From NCBI GenBank assembly GCA_947497145.1, contig CANMFQ010000005.1:124001-188000 (forward strand): a stretch of DNA of 64,000 bases, read 5' to 3'. The translations under genes and the position numbers were made by a program. This DNA is from an uncultured Flavobacteriaceae bacterium (lineage in GTDB: Bacteria; Bacteroidota; Bacteroidia; Flavobacteriales; Flavobacteriaceae). Under the pieces are notes generated by a model, which saw only the letters and a list, made by a program, of their open reading frames with translations, ran no database searches and was not told the DNA's origin. Each line of letters starts with the position of its first letter. Positions within the stretch are counted from its first letter, which is position 1. Shown here piece by piece: positions 33,063-41,039 of the stretch.

Positions 33063-34193
33063 ATGAGCGGAACATCACTAAAAAGTAGCGTATTACTACT
33101 CTTTCTCTTGGCTGTATCAATACAAGCTCAACATACAGGTAGTTTAGCAAAAGGTATTACACAATATATAGACCTGTTCAATACTTCAATGAATGATGCT
33201 GTGGCGTGTTATCGCATTCCTGCTCTTGTCACCACTCCCAACGGAACACTACTAGCCGCTATTGATGAGCGTATTTCTTCATGCAATGATTTACGTAGCA
33301 ATAATGATATCAATATTGTCTTACGCAGCAGTAGTGACAACGGAAAAACATGGTCACCAATTAAAACCGTAGTTGATTTTCCATGGGGCAAAAGCGCCTC
33401 AGATCCTTCCATGATTGTTGATCAAATTACCAATGATATTTTCCTATTTTATAACTATATGGATTTGCTTAAGCAAAAAGACGTGTATTATCTTCATGTA
33501 ATAAAAAGTAGTGATAACGGAAAAACATGGAGTCCGCCCACAGATATAACCGACCAAATTTCAAAACCGCAATGGCATAACGATTTTAAGTTCATCACCT
33601 CAGGACGAGGCATTCAAACCAAAAAAGGCAACTTACTACATACCCTAGTAAATTTAAAGAACGGACTTCATTTGTTTGGTAGTAATGACCACGGAAAAAC
33701 ATGGTATACCATTAACACACCCATTTTACCCGCCGATGAATCAAAAGTCATAGAACGTGCAGATGGTAGTTTAATGATAAACGCAAGAGTAAATGCAACA
33801 GGCATGCGTTATGTACACATTTCAAATGACGAAGGCAAAACGTGGCAAACCAAACCAGCACCTCATCTTGCTGACCCTGGCTGCAATGCTAGTATTATTA
33901 GGTATACTGCTGTTAGCGAAGGTTTCGATAAAAACCGCCTACTTTTTTCTAATGCTAATTCGAAAAAAGACAGAGTAAACCTAACAGTCAAGATTAGTTA
34001 CGACGAGGGTAAAACTTGGAGTGCATCTAAAACTATTTACTCAGGCCCTTCTGCATATTCTTCATTAACCATATTACAAAATGGGGATATTGGCTTATTT
34101 TTTGAGCAAGACGAATACTCCAAAAATCCATTTGTTAGCTTTTCATTACAGTGGCTTACTGATAAAAAAGACACTTATAAAAAAACAAAATAA
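33063..34193 (+). CDS. Secreted exo-alpha-sialidase (GH33-like)
   Basis: The 376-residue protein begins with a signal peptide ending 'SIQAQ'. It has the N-terminal 'CYRIPALVTTPNGTLLAAIDER' (the RIP motif with a catalytic-triad arginine), five Asp boxes of the form 'SDNGKTWSP', and the late 'AYSSLTILQNGDIGLFFEQ' with the nucleophilic Tyr and its Glu partner. It forms a six-bladed propeller that removes sialic acid from glycans. It has no T9SS tail, so it is probably periplasmic. No nan genes or SusCD pair are adjacent. Confidence 0.92.
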   Translation: MSGTSLKSSVLLLFLLAVSIQAQHTGSLAKGITQYIDLFNTSMNDAVACYRIPALVTTPNGTLLAAIDERISSCNDLRSNNDINIVLRSSSDNGKTWSPIKTVVDFPWGKSASDPSMIVDQITNDIFLFYNYMDLLKQKDVYYLHVIKSSDNGKTWSPPTDITDQISKPQWHNDFKFITSGRGIQTKKGNLLHTLVNLKNGLHLFGSNDHGKTWYTINTPILPADESKVIERADGSLMINARVNATGMRYVHISNDEGKTWQTKPAPHLADPGCNASIIRYTAVSEGFDKNRLLFSNANSKKDRVNLTVKISYDEGKTWSASKTIYSGPSAYSSLTILQNGDIGLFFEQDEYSKNPFVSFSLQWLTDKKDTYKKTK

Positions 34194-35850: not shown

Positions 35851-38800
35851 TTATCCAACAATATTTACAATTTTACCGGGTACCACAATGACCTTTTTAG
35901 GCGTACGCCCTTGTAATTGTTCTTTGGTTTTTTCATGTGCCATCACCGCCGCCTCAATGGCTTCTTTAGGTAAATCTGCAGGAAGTTCCATTTTAAAACG
36001 CATTTTACCATTAAAAGAAATGGGATATTCCTTACTACTTTCAACCAAATATTTTGGCTCAAAAGTAGGGAAGGCTACTGTAGCAATAGACTCTGAATGT
36101 CCTAATTTCTCCCAAAGTTCTTCTGCAATATGAGGCGCATATGGCGAAACCAAAATTGCTAAAGGTTCTAAAATATCCTTACTAGTACATTTTTGAGCAG
36201 TAAGCTCATTCACGCAAATCATAAAGGTAGAAACCGATGTATTAAAACTAAAGTTTGCAATATCTTCTTCTACTTTTTTAATCGTCTTATGCAGTGTTTT
36301 TAAATTTTCTGCGGATGGTACTGTATCGGTTACCTTGCTACCATTGTCATTAAAATACAATCGCCATAGTTTTTTCAGAAAGCCATGCACTCCTGTAATA
36401 CCAGCAGTATTCCAAGGTTTAGACTGTTCTAAAGGGCCTAAAAACATTTCATACAAACGAAGACTGTCTGCGCCATATTCTTTAACAATATCATCTGGGT
36501 TGACAACATTGTATTTAGATTTAGACATTTTTTCAACTTCACGACCAACAATATATTTCCCGTCTTCTAATATGAATTCGGCATCCTTAAATTCTGGTCT
36601 GGTCTTTTTAAATGTTTCAATATCTAGCTCATCCGAGGAATTTACCAAAGATACATCTACATGTAAAGGAGTTACTTTTAAACCTTTTATCAATCCTTTA
36701 GAAGTTAATTCTCCTGTATCTTCATTTCTATAAACAAAAGCACTAGTCCCCGTAATCATCCCCTGATTAATGAGCTTTTTGGCAAACTCATCTTTGGGCA
36801 CAAAGCCACGATCAAACATAAACTTCTGCCAAAAACGACTGTATAACAAATGCCCTGTGGCATGCTCACTGCCGCCAATATATAAATCTACATCTTGCCA
36901 ATAATTGATAGCTTCTTGAGAGAAAATCTCCGCTTCATTCTGTGGATCCATATAGCGGTTAAAATATTGAGAACTACCTGCCCAACCTGGCATGGTATTT
37001 AATTCTAAAGGAAAGGTACAGGTATGGTTAATCTCACTATTAGGCACAACCTCATTCTTCTCAGTACACCAAGCCCAAGTTGTTGCATTACCTAATGGCG
37101 GTTCACCTGTCTCTGTTGGCAGGTATTTTTCAACTTCTGGAAGTTTGATGGGTAAATGCTCTGGCGCTATCATTTGCGGCATTCCATCTACATAATACAC
37201 AGGAAAAGGCTCACCCCAATAGCGCTGTCTACTAAAAACAGCATCGCGAAGGCGGTAATTAATCTTCCCTTTTCCCTGACCTATTTTCTCTAATTCATAG
37301 ATAGCCGTTTTTAGCGCCTTCTTGTAAGGTAATCCGTTTAGAAAATCAGAATTAGTGATAATGGTTTTTTCTTTATCAGTAAAAGCCTCTTCTGAAATAT
37401 CTACCCCCTCAAAAATATTTGGAATAGGAATACCAAAATGCTTGGCAAAATCATAGTCGCGTTGATCACCACATGGCACAGACATTACCGCCCCAGTACC
37501 ATAGCCTGCCAACACATAATCACCTATCCAAATAGGAATGGGTTCTTTTGTAAAGGGATGTTCCGCATAAGCTCCAGTAAATACACCTGTAATGGTTTTT
37601 ACATCAGCCATTCTATCCCGTTCTGATCGTTTTGCTGTAGCTTCAATATATGACTCAACAGCCTTCTTTTGCTCAGGTGTCGTAATTTGAGTCACCAATT
37701 CATGCTCAGGCGCTAGCGTCATGAAACTAACACCAAAAATAGTGTCAGGTCGGGTAGTGAACACCGAAATCCCCCTAGCCCCCGAAGGGGGAACTACAAT
37801 TTTCTCTAAACTTTGTAGAATCTCTTTTAAAACTGCGTCTATATCTCCAATAACCTGCTCGTTTCTAAATCGCAAGACCTCATAGCCCAGCTCATTTAGT
37901 GCAGCTGTGCGAATGGTATCTTCTTCTTTTTGGGCATCATGAATACCTCCATCCACTTCTATGATCAGTTTTTTTGTAAGACATACAAAATCCACAATGT
38001 AGTTACCAATCACATGCTGTCTTCTAAACTTATATCCAATATTTTTAGATTTCAAGCTTTGCCATAAAATATCTTCTGCCTGCGTTGGATTATTTCGCAT
38101 TTCTTTAGCGCGCTCCAGCAATACGTGTGAATTATTTCCCCCAGTCAGATACCCTGGTCGAGTTCCTTCCCCTTTGGGGAAGGCTAGGATGGGGAATATT
38201 ACCTCTGCTCCCTGACTTCTGCCTATCCAATTGGTTTGTGAATCTTTTAGTGGCTGTGGCCAATCTATTTTTTCCAAGCCATCTAACAACCTTTGCGCAT
38301 AAGCGCTAATACGCATGCTCCATTGCGTCATCTTTTTACGTATGACGGCATGACCACCACGTTCAGAAACGCCGTTAACAATTTCGTCATTTGCCAGTAC
38401 AGTACCTAAAGCAGGACACCAATTCACCTCTGACTCTGCCAAATAGGTTAATCTATATTTTAAAAGTATCGTTTGTTGTTCCTTAGAAGAAAAAGCGTGC
38501 CACTCATCAGCAGAAAACGCAACAACATCATCATCACAAACGGCATTTACACTTGCATTTCCATCTGAAGAAAATTTGGCAATTAGCGTGTCAATGGCTT
38601 CCGCCTTATCTGTATCTTTATTGTACCAAGAGTTAAACAGTTGAATAAAAATCCACTGCGTCCACTTATAATATGAAGGGTCTGAAGTGCGAATTTCTCT
38701 ACTCCAATCAAAAGAAAATCCAATTTGATCTAACTGCCTTCTATAAGTTTCTATATTTTTTGCTGTGGTAATAGCAGGGTGTTGCCCTGTCTGTATGGCA

Positions 38801-39063
38801 TATTGCTCTGCTGGCAACCCAAAAGAATCATACCCTTGCGGATGTAACACATTAAAACCCTTGTGCCTTTTGTATCGCGCATAAATATCACTAGCTATAT
38901 ATCCCAAAGGATGCCCCACATGAAGTCCTGCTCCAGAGGGGTATGGAAACATATCTAATACATAAAATTTTTCTTTTTTAGAATTTTGGCTCGCCTTGAA
39001 GGTTTCGTTTTTAGCCCAATATTTTTGCCATTTGGCTTCAATTTCGTTGAAATTGTATTGCAT
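35851..39063 (-). CDS. leuS: Leucyl-tRNA synthetase with an in-frame DUF559 nuclease-like domain
   Basis: The 1070-residue class I synthetase has the HIGH-type motif '[10 protein letters not shown]', a KMSKS motif ('[11 protein letters not shown]') and the CP1 editing domain with '[10 protein letters not shown]'. It is about 140 residues longer than expected. The excess lies at about residues 293-431, between '[11 protein letters not shown]' and 'ISVFTTRPD'. It reads as a complete DUF559 domain ('[19 protein letters not shown]', '[18 protein letters not shown]', '[11 protein letters not shown]', '[11 protein letters not shown]'). There is no frameshift or stop and no intein splicing motif. 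The start at 39063 is chosen over 39168 because '[16 protein letters not shown]' is the normal LeuRS N-terminus and a -7 box lies between the two. Confidence 0.95.
37769..38196 (-). mobile_element. Small DUF559-coding element with translated terminal inverted repeats, inserted in leuS
   Basis: One end reads ATCCCCCTAGCCCCCGAAG then GGGGGAACTA on the plus strand. The other end, read on the minus strand, is ATTCCCCATCCTAGCC, TTCCCC, AAAGGGGAAGGAACT. The ends are imperfect inverted repeats of each other, and each can fold into its own C-run/G-run hairpin. AAT is present on both sides (37768-37770 and 38195-38197). The element is an open frame throughout and codes for one DUF559 domain. No transposase is present. 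Exact borders cannot be fixed without an empty-site relative. Confidence 0.72.
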
Positions 39064-39089
39064 GGTGTATCTTTCTTTGCTATATGCCA

Positions 39090-39097
39090 CAAAAATA
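39090..39097 (-). promoter_or_regulatory. -7 box of leuS
   Basis: On the minus strand TATTTTTG matches TAnnTTTG 26 bases before the ATG at 39063. It lies downstream of the longer open-frame start, so that start would not be transcribed from here. Confidence 0.55.
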
Positions 39098-39155
39098 AGT
39101 TTAATATCATAAAGGCGAAAAGATATTATTATATTGAGACACCAAAAGAAAGAAT

Positions 39156-41039
39156 TTGTCAACTTCAAGTATTAACACGATAGCGATACTATCATTATTG
39201 AGCTTACTATGTCAACATACATACGCACAGCTTGGTTTTTGTAATGGAAACTCAGGAGACCCCATATTTGTTGAGGATTTTGGCACTGGCACTACCAATG
39301 GCCCCGCCTTAGCTTCGGGCACTACCACCTATAATTATACTTCATTTTCGCCTTCTGATGGCAACTACACAATTGCTAGTACCAGCAACTATTTTGATTG
39401 GCATGTAGTGAACGATCACACGCCTAATGATACTAATGGTAAAATGTTTATTGTTAACGCAAGTTTTACGGCTGGCGAATTTTACCGAAAAACAATTACA
39501 GGGCTTTGTGAAAACACTTCTTATGAGTTTTCATCTTGGCTTATCAATTTACTACCTCGTTCTGGCTGTGGTGGTGCAGGCATCCCTATTAATGTAACTT
39601 TTCAAATATGGGACAGTACCAACACAAATATGTTAGCATCTGGAAGCACCGGAAACATCCAAGGAGAAGCAACCCCGTCATGGAATAACTACGGACTAGT
39701 ATTTCAAACCCTAGCTACACAAACATCGGTTATTTTAAAAATGATCAATAATAGTGAGGGAGGCTGCGGAAATGATTTAGCTATTGATGATATTGCATTT
39801 AAATCATGTGGCGATTTTATTACTTTAACCGATGACACGGGAGAAAACATCATTGCGCAGTGTGAAGAAGATGGCGTAATTGTAAGCACCACCATAACGG
39901 CCACACCAGATTTTTCAATTTATACAACTCATGCCTACCAATGGCAAGTAAGCGCAGACGCTATAAACTGGACAGATATTTCTGGTGAAACCACCAATAT
40001 GTACACCACACCTACCTTATCGGAGTCTCGTTTCTTTAGAGTAAAAGTAGCCGAAGACCCCCTTAATGTATCAAATGATTTATGCAATGTCGTCTCTGAA
40101 GTTTTCAACGCCATACTAGTACCCATTCCCGACCCTCCCGTAAGTAATGGTGATTTGGCAGTTTGCGCCAATTCGCTGCTTCCACTTACTGTTTCTGTAC
40201 CGCCTAATCACAAGGTAAATTGGTATGATGCGCCCACAGGCGGCAACTTACTTATGGAGAATAGCACCTCTTTTACACCATCAGCCTCAGGAACTTTTTA
40301 TGCAGCTGCTAGCTCAACGCTTGTAGATTGTTTCTCAAGAACACGCACTCCTTTAGGATATACGATCTATTCACTACCGGTAGAAGCTGATGAAAACCGG
40401 ACTTTATGTGAAAATGTTCCTATTATGCTGACCACAGAAGAAACCTACACTTCCTATCGTTGGAATACTGGTGAAACCACAAAAAGCATTACGGTAGGTG
40501 AGCCAGGAATGTACACGGTTACAGTAACCAATGAAAATAACTGCTCAGCAACAAAAACAATTACCGTTGAACAAATTGACCAACCTGTTATCGAAACCAT
40601 TGTCTCTGTAAATGAAGACATTGTAGTAACTGCCGAAAACAGCGATACCAATGCCTATGAATATGCCTTAAATGATGGAGCATTTCAAGATAGCCCAGTT
40701 TTTGAATTGGTAGAAGGAGGCATACATCAAATTCATGTACGTGGCAAAAATGATTGTCCAGTTGTTAGTGAAGAGTTTCACCATTTTGTGATACCAAAAT
40801 TCTTTACCCCCAACGGAGATACTATTAATGACCGCTATATTTTACAAGGATTAGAATTCTTCAATCAAGTGGAGGTTCAGATTTACAATCGCTATGGCAA
40901 ATTACTAATGCAATCAAAAAATCTATCCTTTAGTTGGGATGGCACATACAATGGAAAAATACTTCCCTCATCAGACTACTGGTACTATGTAAAAGCCGAC
41001 AGCCTCCAATTTACAGGGCATTTTACGTTGAAACGGTAG
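39156..41039 (+). CDS. Secreted protein with T9SS type B (gliding motility-associated) C-terminal domain
   Basis: The 627-residue protein starts at TTG (no in-frame ATG near the signal peptide, which ends 'CQHTYAQ'). A jelly-roll-like N-terminal domain (about 30-215) binds or mimics carbohydrate modules. Ig-like and PKD-like stretches follow, each with Cys pairs and '[25 protein letters not shown]'. The C-terminal CHU_C domain ('[18 protein letters not shown]', '[13 protein letters not shown]', '[19 protein letters not shown]') marks type B secretion cargo such as SprB-like adhesins. It is divergent from leuS, with promoters in the 92-base gap. Confidence 0.88.

Follow-up and report, generated by a model that had tools for sequence, protein, structure and literature searches.

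The leuS locus and its insert

The window analysed here is a 64,000-nucleotide stretch of an uncultured Flavobacteriaceae bacterium (assembly GCA_947497145.1, contig CANMFQ010000005.1, positions 124,001 to 188,000 of the forward strand), and the subject of this report is an insert within its gene for leucyl-tRNA synthetase (LeuRS), leuS. The insert consists of an open DUF559 nuclease frame between two inverted palindromes that resemble repetitive extragenic palindromic (REP) sequences. It is probably a selfish mobile element that is carried as an extra domain of the host protein; its cleavage activity and its mobility we infer. The features are as follows, in window coordinates:

35851..39063, minus strand: leuS, leucyl-tRNA synthetase, 1070 residues in a single frame, the only copy detected in the genome
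38161..38194, minus strand: left end, CCCCATCCTAGCC followed by the hairpin CCTTCCCC AAA GGGGAAGG, read in the LeuRS frame as PILAFPKGE
38128..38154, minus strand: GYLTGGNNS, a variant form of the Y.TA.P lead-in peptide that often precedes DUF559 domains lying in frame
37807..38115, minus strand: DUF559 (PF04480) nuclease domain with the Vsr / I-Bth0305I fold, by Pfam, profile search, AlphaFold2 (AF2) and Foldseek
37770..37793, minus strand: right end, TTCCCCCTTCGGGGGCTAGGGGGA, a REP palindrome in the opposite orientation to that of the left end, read as PPSGARG

The open reading frame (ORF) listing gave a minus-strand leuS frame that is open and unbroken over 35851–39168, in which the likely start codon is the ATG at 39063, giving 1070 residues. 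DUF559 was assigned by Pfam to residues 318–420 of the minus-strand frame 35854–39066 (E 9.9e-38; 128.8 bits against a cut-off of 20.6), and is flanked in the same protein by the LeuRS editing, class I synthetase and anticodon-binding families. A preliminary description of this DNA had claimed a DUF559 domain inside leuS as one unbroken frame, and both results bear this out. On the DNA, the insert extends from 38194, where the left palindrome starts, to about 37770, where the right one ends. In the protein it is placed between GAEVIF and a segment of ten residues, before the threonine-rich editing motif, which is the turn of the CP1 editing domain that the same description had named. The turn had been described there as short in E. 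coli; in line with this, the span from NWIG to TTRPDT comprises 158 residues in the window LeuRS and 25–44 residues in nine congeneric LeuRS with empty sites, such as had been proposed for a search in related flavobacteria.

Because a 122-residue LeuRS query gave one match in the whole genome, the insert-bearing leuS is very likely the working LeuRS gene. Intein or protein-splicing families were absent from the Pfam matches of the full LeuRS at E≤0.001 (Pfam only), which agrees with the earlier prediction that the domain, having no splicing motif, stays in the mature enzyme. An assembly chimera or sequencing artefact has next to no chance of explaining the insert: nothing in the window speaks for it, and in one relative (L022 in G124, 64 % complete, 18 N) the frame is broken inside DUF559, whereas the unbroken architecture is repeated in independent assemblies that include named isolates and single-contig genomes (for example G137:C1, 4,130,958 bases). 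The frameshift or chimera against which the preliminary description had warned was ruled out on these grounds.

Palindromic ends and element borders

As read from the sequence, the layout is REP palindrome, DUF559 frame and inverted REP palindrome, open throughout. The palindromic ends are not mentioned in the preliminary description, which was made without database searches and so had no view of relatives in other enzymes or of a second DUF559 in the genome. The border DNA is palindromic and inverted, with CCCCATCCTAGCC and CCTTCCCCAAAGGGGAAGG on the left and CCCCCTTCGGGGG and CTAGGGGG on the right. The 27-base core of the left end was found as a single copy in each of nine genomes (nine genera) with 0–1 mismatches. 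The right-end palindrome has 41 copies in the genome at ≤3 mismatches, its own copy included, and the reversed-pattern control gave 0. These copies include an array around the second DUF559 of the genome (G000), a stand-alone gene on G000:C39 that is 39 % identical to the LeuRS insert; at that locus (L183, part of the same contig) the intergenic REP arrays around the gene are dense. The insert ends of another genome, G193, represent a REP type of their own, with 12 copies in G193 (≤2 mismatches), 0 in G000, and 3 and 1 copies in two of six other genomes searched.

The borders could be defined in G227 (L058), in which one MetH frame carries two DUF559 elements at different sites, 98 of 108 residues being identical, because the two copies agree from AGCCCCCC..CCCCCAAAGGGGG to CCCCTTTGGGGGCGGGGGGGGCT, a stretch that opens and closes with the inverted palindromes, and diverge outside. 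For a wider sample, 113 distinct copies of DUF559 that lie within host frames or are fused to them were screened for a GC-rich hairpin (arms ≥6) within 150 bp of DUF559. Such a hairpin was present on the left in 69/113, on the right in 67/113 and on both sides in 47/113 copies, compared with 1/111, 3/112 and 0/113 in control windows; the criterion is strict, and the right palindrome of the window itself (arms of 5) fails it. A loose form of the lead-in pattern preceded 84 of 111 in-frame copies and 5 of 18 stand-alone or HemD copies.

Nuclease fold and relatives

A profile of the insert matched 3hrl, a DUF559-like protein from Neisseria, with E 7.9e-31, and the homing endonuclease I-Bth0305I (3r3p), its second-best solved relative, with E 9.5e-7. 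The domain was modelled by AF2 with a predicted local distance difference test score (pLDDT) of 79.9 and a predicted template modelling score (pTM) of 0.72. Foldseek placed 3hrl and 3r3p first for this model (3r3p, E 1.4e-4) and Vsr at E 0.03–0.06, and the sole PADLOC match was a homing endonuclease model (E 3.5e-5). From these profile and model comparisons, the domain appears homologous to the catalytic domain of EDxHD / Vsr-like homing endonucleases. Structure prediction of the full LeuRS, suggested beforehand as a check on separate folding, gave a model of low quality (pTM 0.48; 18 alignment rows), in which the insert seems to form an element of its own between low-confidence linkers.

Distribution among hosts and genomes

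DUF559 was present in 111 of the 298 genomes of the family scan. From the matches listed, 40 family stretches were picked by hand for long open frames; four long-frame places, in G137, G019, G232 and G073, were left out of this set. The motif was in frame in 36 of the 40: LeuRS (16 loci), MetH (8 domains in 7 loci), HemD (7, N-terminal), RecG (4), IleRS (1) and HisD (1, C-terminal). The script required the motif D-F...E-x-D-G..H, so decayed copies were missed. Four stretches had no motif match: L094 and L095 were read by eye, and a follow-up look at L076 and L080 gave nothing.

Species genomes were scanned with DFVC- and EVDGxH-type patterns. In the best 80 of 558 relatives, DUF559 lay inside a longer host frame at 70 of the 80 loci, some of them cut by contig ends; by record title, 79 of these best 80 belong to Bacteroidota and one (L128) is labelled Paceibacterota. 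In L128, around 5.0–5.3 kb, the LeuRS of this metagenome-assembled genome (MAG) carries the element at the same loop. One locus, L165 (97-residue frame), was missed by the later census. Marine isolates with a carrier locus include Maribacter luteus RZ05 (in RecG) and Leeuwenhoekiella marinoflava DSM 3653 (in LeuRS). Over all loci, at least sixteen host families contain DUF559 internally: LeuRS, IleRS, ValRS, MetRS, MetH, RecG, RecJ, a RecB-like helicase, HsdR, AcsA, IcmF, a CaiB-type CoA-transferase, PaaZ, a LegC-type aminotransferase, an alpha-xylosidase-like enzyme and MazG. N-terminal fusions were found with Gmk, IspF and HemD. Host labels were given by hand for 21 loci, for three of these (L116, L121, L158) from reading the sequence.

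At seven loci (L060, L070, L072, L081, L082, L084, L088), a DUF559 frame reads through, in frame, into the beginning of HemD; these seven form a clade of their own. They may be stand-alone genes lying upstream of HemD and not true fusions.

Occupancy of LeuRS is patchy. Within the genus, three of 12 genes carry the insert, and in an even draw across the family at least 8 of 118 do so, of which five have an unbroken frame, one has a broken frame in a fragmentary assembly and two are decayed. Plasmid collections yielded 39 records, all at <60 % identity, and viral collections 35 loci at 29–54 % identity; PHROGs gave weak matches without a named function, except for one HNH model.

Inheritance of inserts and host genes

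The DUF559 inserts cluster strongly by host gene. On a DUF559 tree of 125 rows, in which 59 of 122 inner branches were unresolved, 26 changes of host label were counted (minimum 21), compared with a mean of 73.6 after shuffling; none of 200 shuffles was as low. LeuRS genes with an insert are interspersed with empty ones: the state changes 18 times on a host tree of 64 rows, from which eleven LeuRS loci were left out for pattern reasons, and 21 times on one of 59 rows, from which five long-branch rows were dropped. The carriers of insert lineage i were rejected as a single clade of LeuRS hosts (approximately unbiased test, p-AU 3e-79), as was one host clade of all LeuRS carriers (p 1e-4). A fixed ancestral LeuRS domain, the other outcome that the preliminary description had seen as fatal to its claim, is ruled out by the patchiness, including the three of 12 congeners, and by the host-tree tests.

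The content of the site also changes. The hosts of L062 and L175 are 93 % identical and their inserts only 57 %. In the congener G003, NEEDIGDIDAV...PPSGARGIS comes after the lineage-i element and is similar to the tail and right end of lineage ii in the window (eleven residues, then ...PPSGARGIS); this sequence is an apparent remnant of a displaced lineage-ii element. The inserts thus recur at one site and their spread is at odds with the host tree, as is characteristic of homing endonucleases.

At a second site in MetH, L063 and L016 have REP-like sequence without DUF559, and L065 lacks any. Six empty LeuRS genes (L024, L034, L040, L041, L209, L213) have other short repeat-like in-frame sequence in the same turn. 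Because the second MetH site and several empty LeuRS turns hold such REP-like or repeat-like sequence, resident palindromes may serve as landing pads, and the LeuRS turn may be a general landing site. Elsewhere in LeuRS, IleRS and MetH of G003, further in-frame palindrome-like peptides (PPLEGELEG, SPSGRLGG etc.) were noticed at loci L003, L011 and L016.

Selection on the nuclease and its ends

The in-frame nuclease is under purifying selection. Among 16 chosen pairs, the ratio of nonsynonymous to synonymous substitution rates (dN/dS) was 0.03–0.15 in the 11 pairs with estimable dS, which is similar to, or somewhat above, that of the host enzymes; in the other five, dS was saturated and pN/pS was 0.12–0.15. 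The columns of the search motif are conserved by construction; outside it, T17, E20, W24 and R37 are shared by all 102 copies and H40 by 101 of the 102.

Synonymous conservation at the ends was counted at fourfold sites of aligned codons, only in copies that keep the end peptide (LeuRS, 12 left and 9 right of 47; RecG, 6 left and 11 right of 14; MetH, 8 left and 6 right of 18), the pairwise counts being non-independent. For the LeuRS left end (lineage ii), 294/307 comparisons were identical (96 %), compared with 468/1193 (39 %) in the nuclease and 1391/4116 in the host of the same 12 copies; LeuRS right ends gave 186/194 (96 %) and their nucleases 216/611. The corresponding values for RecG were 26/34 (76 %) and 98/244 on the left and 263/346 (76 %) and 336/883 on the right, and those for MetH were 63/97 (65 %) and 169/487 on the left and 94/103 (91 %) and 89/260 on the right. 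Overall, identity ranges over 65–96 % in the ends, 34–40 % in the nuclease and 29–34 % in the host. The palindromic ends are constrained as nucleic acid, because their synonymous sites are more conserved than those of the nuclease. Exchange with other genomic repeats fails to explain the constancy of the left end, because it is single-copy in the nine genomes. The constraint may, as a rival to action on DNA, be exerted on an mRNA hairpin.

Two of the stretches without a motif match, L094 (G125) and L095 (G015), contain a LeuRS insert of the same kind, still in frame, in which EVDGxH is replaced by EFVAK / EFEGK; palindromes were not seen at either insert. Old copies can lose both the nuclease motif and the palindromes, as expected of a parasite past its prime, although the two could instead represent early domestication without nuclease activity.

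A broader form of the latter idea is that LeuRS and other class I synthetases recruited a nuclease-fold domain for editing or another action on tRNA. It accords with the presence of four class I synthetases (LeuRS, IleRS, ValRS, MetRS) among the hosts and with purifying selection on the domain. It is nevertheless very unlikely: MetH, RecG, RecJ, the RecB-like helicase, AcsA, HsdR, IcmF and others are hosts too, occupancy is patchy within a genus with turnover at one site, the ends are conserved as nucleic acid, and the altered catalytic motifs of L094 and L095 run counter to what would be expected of an active helper in editing. A recurrently mobile parasite fits better than an editing recruit because of the at least 15 other hosts, the inverted ends conserved as nucleic acid and the turnover at the site.

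Vertical inheritance and REP transposition as alternatives

Several results weigh against a selfish mobile nuclease element. The hairpin criterion was failed on the left in 44/113 and on the right in 46/113 copies, a target-site duplication was not established, and MetH is occupied at more than one site. On the DUF559 side, monophyly of the LeuRS inserts as a whole could not be rejected (p 0.168), and the grouping of the three congeneric inserts in one clade was rejected only at a borderline level (p 0.055). Insert and host identities correlate among LeuRS carriers (rho 0.51), and for this reason much of the inheritance of the inserts may be vertical. Pair profiles had suggested recent horizontal transfer from low synonymous divergence; this was dropped, as only four of 333 same-site pairs reach p<0.01, which is about chance (best 1.3e-4). 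To these are added the association of REP sequence with a transposase and the ability that this transposase could have to move palindromes, both considered below.

Since a single origin is unrejected, the congener clade is borderline and the identities correlate, a history in which the element entered LeuRS once, long ago, and was then exchanged, lost and in part inherited vertically explains the data as well as many separate entries do. A stricter version, in which each gene received one ancestral insertion that was lost many times and never moved, draws on the same correlation and the same unrejected single origin. We consider it extremely unlikely in view of the rejected host clade of lineage-i carriers, the divergent inserts of L062 and L175, the two related copies in one MetH, what looks like a lineage-ii remnant behind the lineage-i element of G003, and the same-loop insert in the LeuRS of the MAG labelled Paceibacterota.

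The other alternative makes DUF559 a passenger: REPs would be moved by the REP-associated tyrosine transposase (RAYT, Pfam Y1_Tnp), and DUF559 would be trapped cargo with a role in repair or defence. REP doublets have been proposed as RAYT-linked mobile units in the cited part of PMC3116915. The REP pattern CCCCCTARCCCCC..GGGGG was found in 42 of the 298 genomes, and the statistics on it ignore kinship among genomes. Y1_Tnp is present in 25/42 pattern genomes and 69/256 others (p 6e-5), and the genome of the window, G000, has four Y1_Tnp matches, all on other contigs. DUF559 is present in 36/42 pattern genomes and 75/256 others (p 4e-12); when five genomes were set aside in which the sole match listed adjoins the LeuRS insert, the counts were 31/37 and 80/261. 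As a predictor of the pattern, DUF559 (odds ratio 14.5) is better than Y1_Tnp (4.0). Among genomes without Y1_Tnp, the pattern occurs in 15/59 with DUF559 and 2/145 without; among those with Y1_Tnp, it occurs in 21/52 and 4/42, respectively. The stronger association with DUF559 weakens RAYT as sole driver of the pattern, and the strong clustering of DUF559 by host gene suits homing more than random transposition of REPs. The passenger explanation is regarded as unlikely.

Interpretation

Taken as a selfish mobile element, the insert would work as follows. The nuclease would be produced either within the host enzyme or by translation from an internal start, and would cut an empty allele or a solo REP resident in the same loop. 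Repair would then copy the element in, with the flanking gene sequence or the REP palindromes providing the homology. The insert would stay in the mature LeuRS, because it is placed in a tolerant turn of the CP1 domain, and no benefit to the host is visible to us.

A more specific proposal, which we believe and doubt in about equal measure, is that this is a distinct class of element: a protein-resident homing element that does not splice, with a Vsr-fold loop domain permanent in essential enzymes, and with REP palindromes as DNA ends and landing pads. Successive lineages would oust each other from the one loop, and copies that decay would finish as inert protein domains.

The preliminary description had left open whether a selfish or repair-type nuclease domain was domesticated in the enzyme or parasitic on it. 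The parasitic part is upheld by an element that looks mobile and has many hosts, and the idea that the host gene shelters the insert, much as with an intein, is supported. The domestication by LeuRS alone is not upheld, and the framing as a single case in LeuRS has to be abandoned for related elements in at least 15 other host enzymes, with inverted ends conserved as nucleic acid and turnover at the site.

The element would show concretely how mobile DNA can bring an entire enzyme domain into an essential protein and, if the proposal of a resident homing element is true, would be a source of new protein architecture. Two separate puzzles, what the widespread DUF559 family does and how REP palindromes spread, are tied together by it and become testable. 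For annotation it carries a warning, in that extra domains in LeuRS, MetH, RecG and other enzymes can be parasites.

Other features of the window

A plus-strand frame at 33063–34193 has repeated SSDNGKTW / SNDEGKTW motifs and resembles, by eye, a BNR-repeat sialidase.

Comparison with known systems

No description of a nuclease-bearing, REP-ended, in-frame element was found in the open-licence PubMed Central literature, and in-frame insertion of DUF559 was not a topic of the titles or abstract openings of the open-licence DUF559 papers there. In fungal mitochondrial rps3, a homing endonuclease gene lies inside, or is fused to, a host protein gene without splicing; the endonuclease is of the LAGLIDADG type, the setting is organellar and REP ends are not known there. 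Inteins have recurrent sites and a patchy spread, as does the window element. Inteins and introns spare essential genes by splicing out, whereas the window element seems to do so as a tolerable protein domain. With inteins it shares an in-frame nuclease inside host enzymes, as outlined in the cited part of PMC3943268; unlike them, it has no detected splicing domain, is predicted to remain in the mature protein and has DNA palindromes as its ends.

The same passages of PMC3943268 describe I-Bth0305I as a multidomain enzyme with a DNA target of nearly 60 base pairs. This EDxHD enzyme (PDB 3r3p) is the second-best solved relative by both profile and fold, but the window insert is a single domain of catalytic size inside a host enzyme. 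The insert also shares a fold and motif family with Vsr and with Caulobacter VsrA, a DUF559, Vsr-like protein. In the cited section of PMC12907096, the DNA damage response that appears when the methyltransferase ScmA is missing is reported to depend on VsrA, which, unlike the insert, is encoded by a stand-alone gene with a predicted role in mismatch repair.

The closest parallels for the ends are palindromic repeats. Rickettsia palindromic elements and intragenic REPs are, according to the cited portions of PMC10969869 and PMC3733652, in-frame palindromic repeats in protein genes, including those for tRNA synthetases and recB, and encode short peptides of 20–30 residues, or 43–82 residues for clusters (PMC3733652). 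The window element is likewise a palindromic repeat in frame in a protein gene, but its palindromes enclose a conserved nuclease domain of ~105 residues. With the REPIN / RAYT system, as presented in part in PMC3116915, it has in common the inverted REP doublet as the apparent mobile unit, whereas the gene enclosed in the window element is DUF559 and not a tyrosine transposase.

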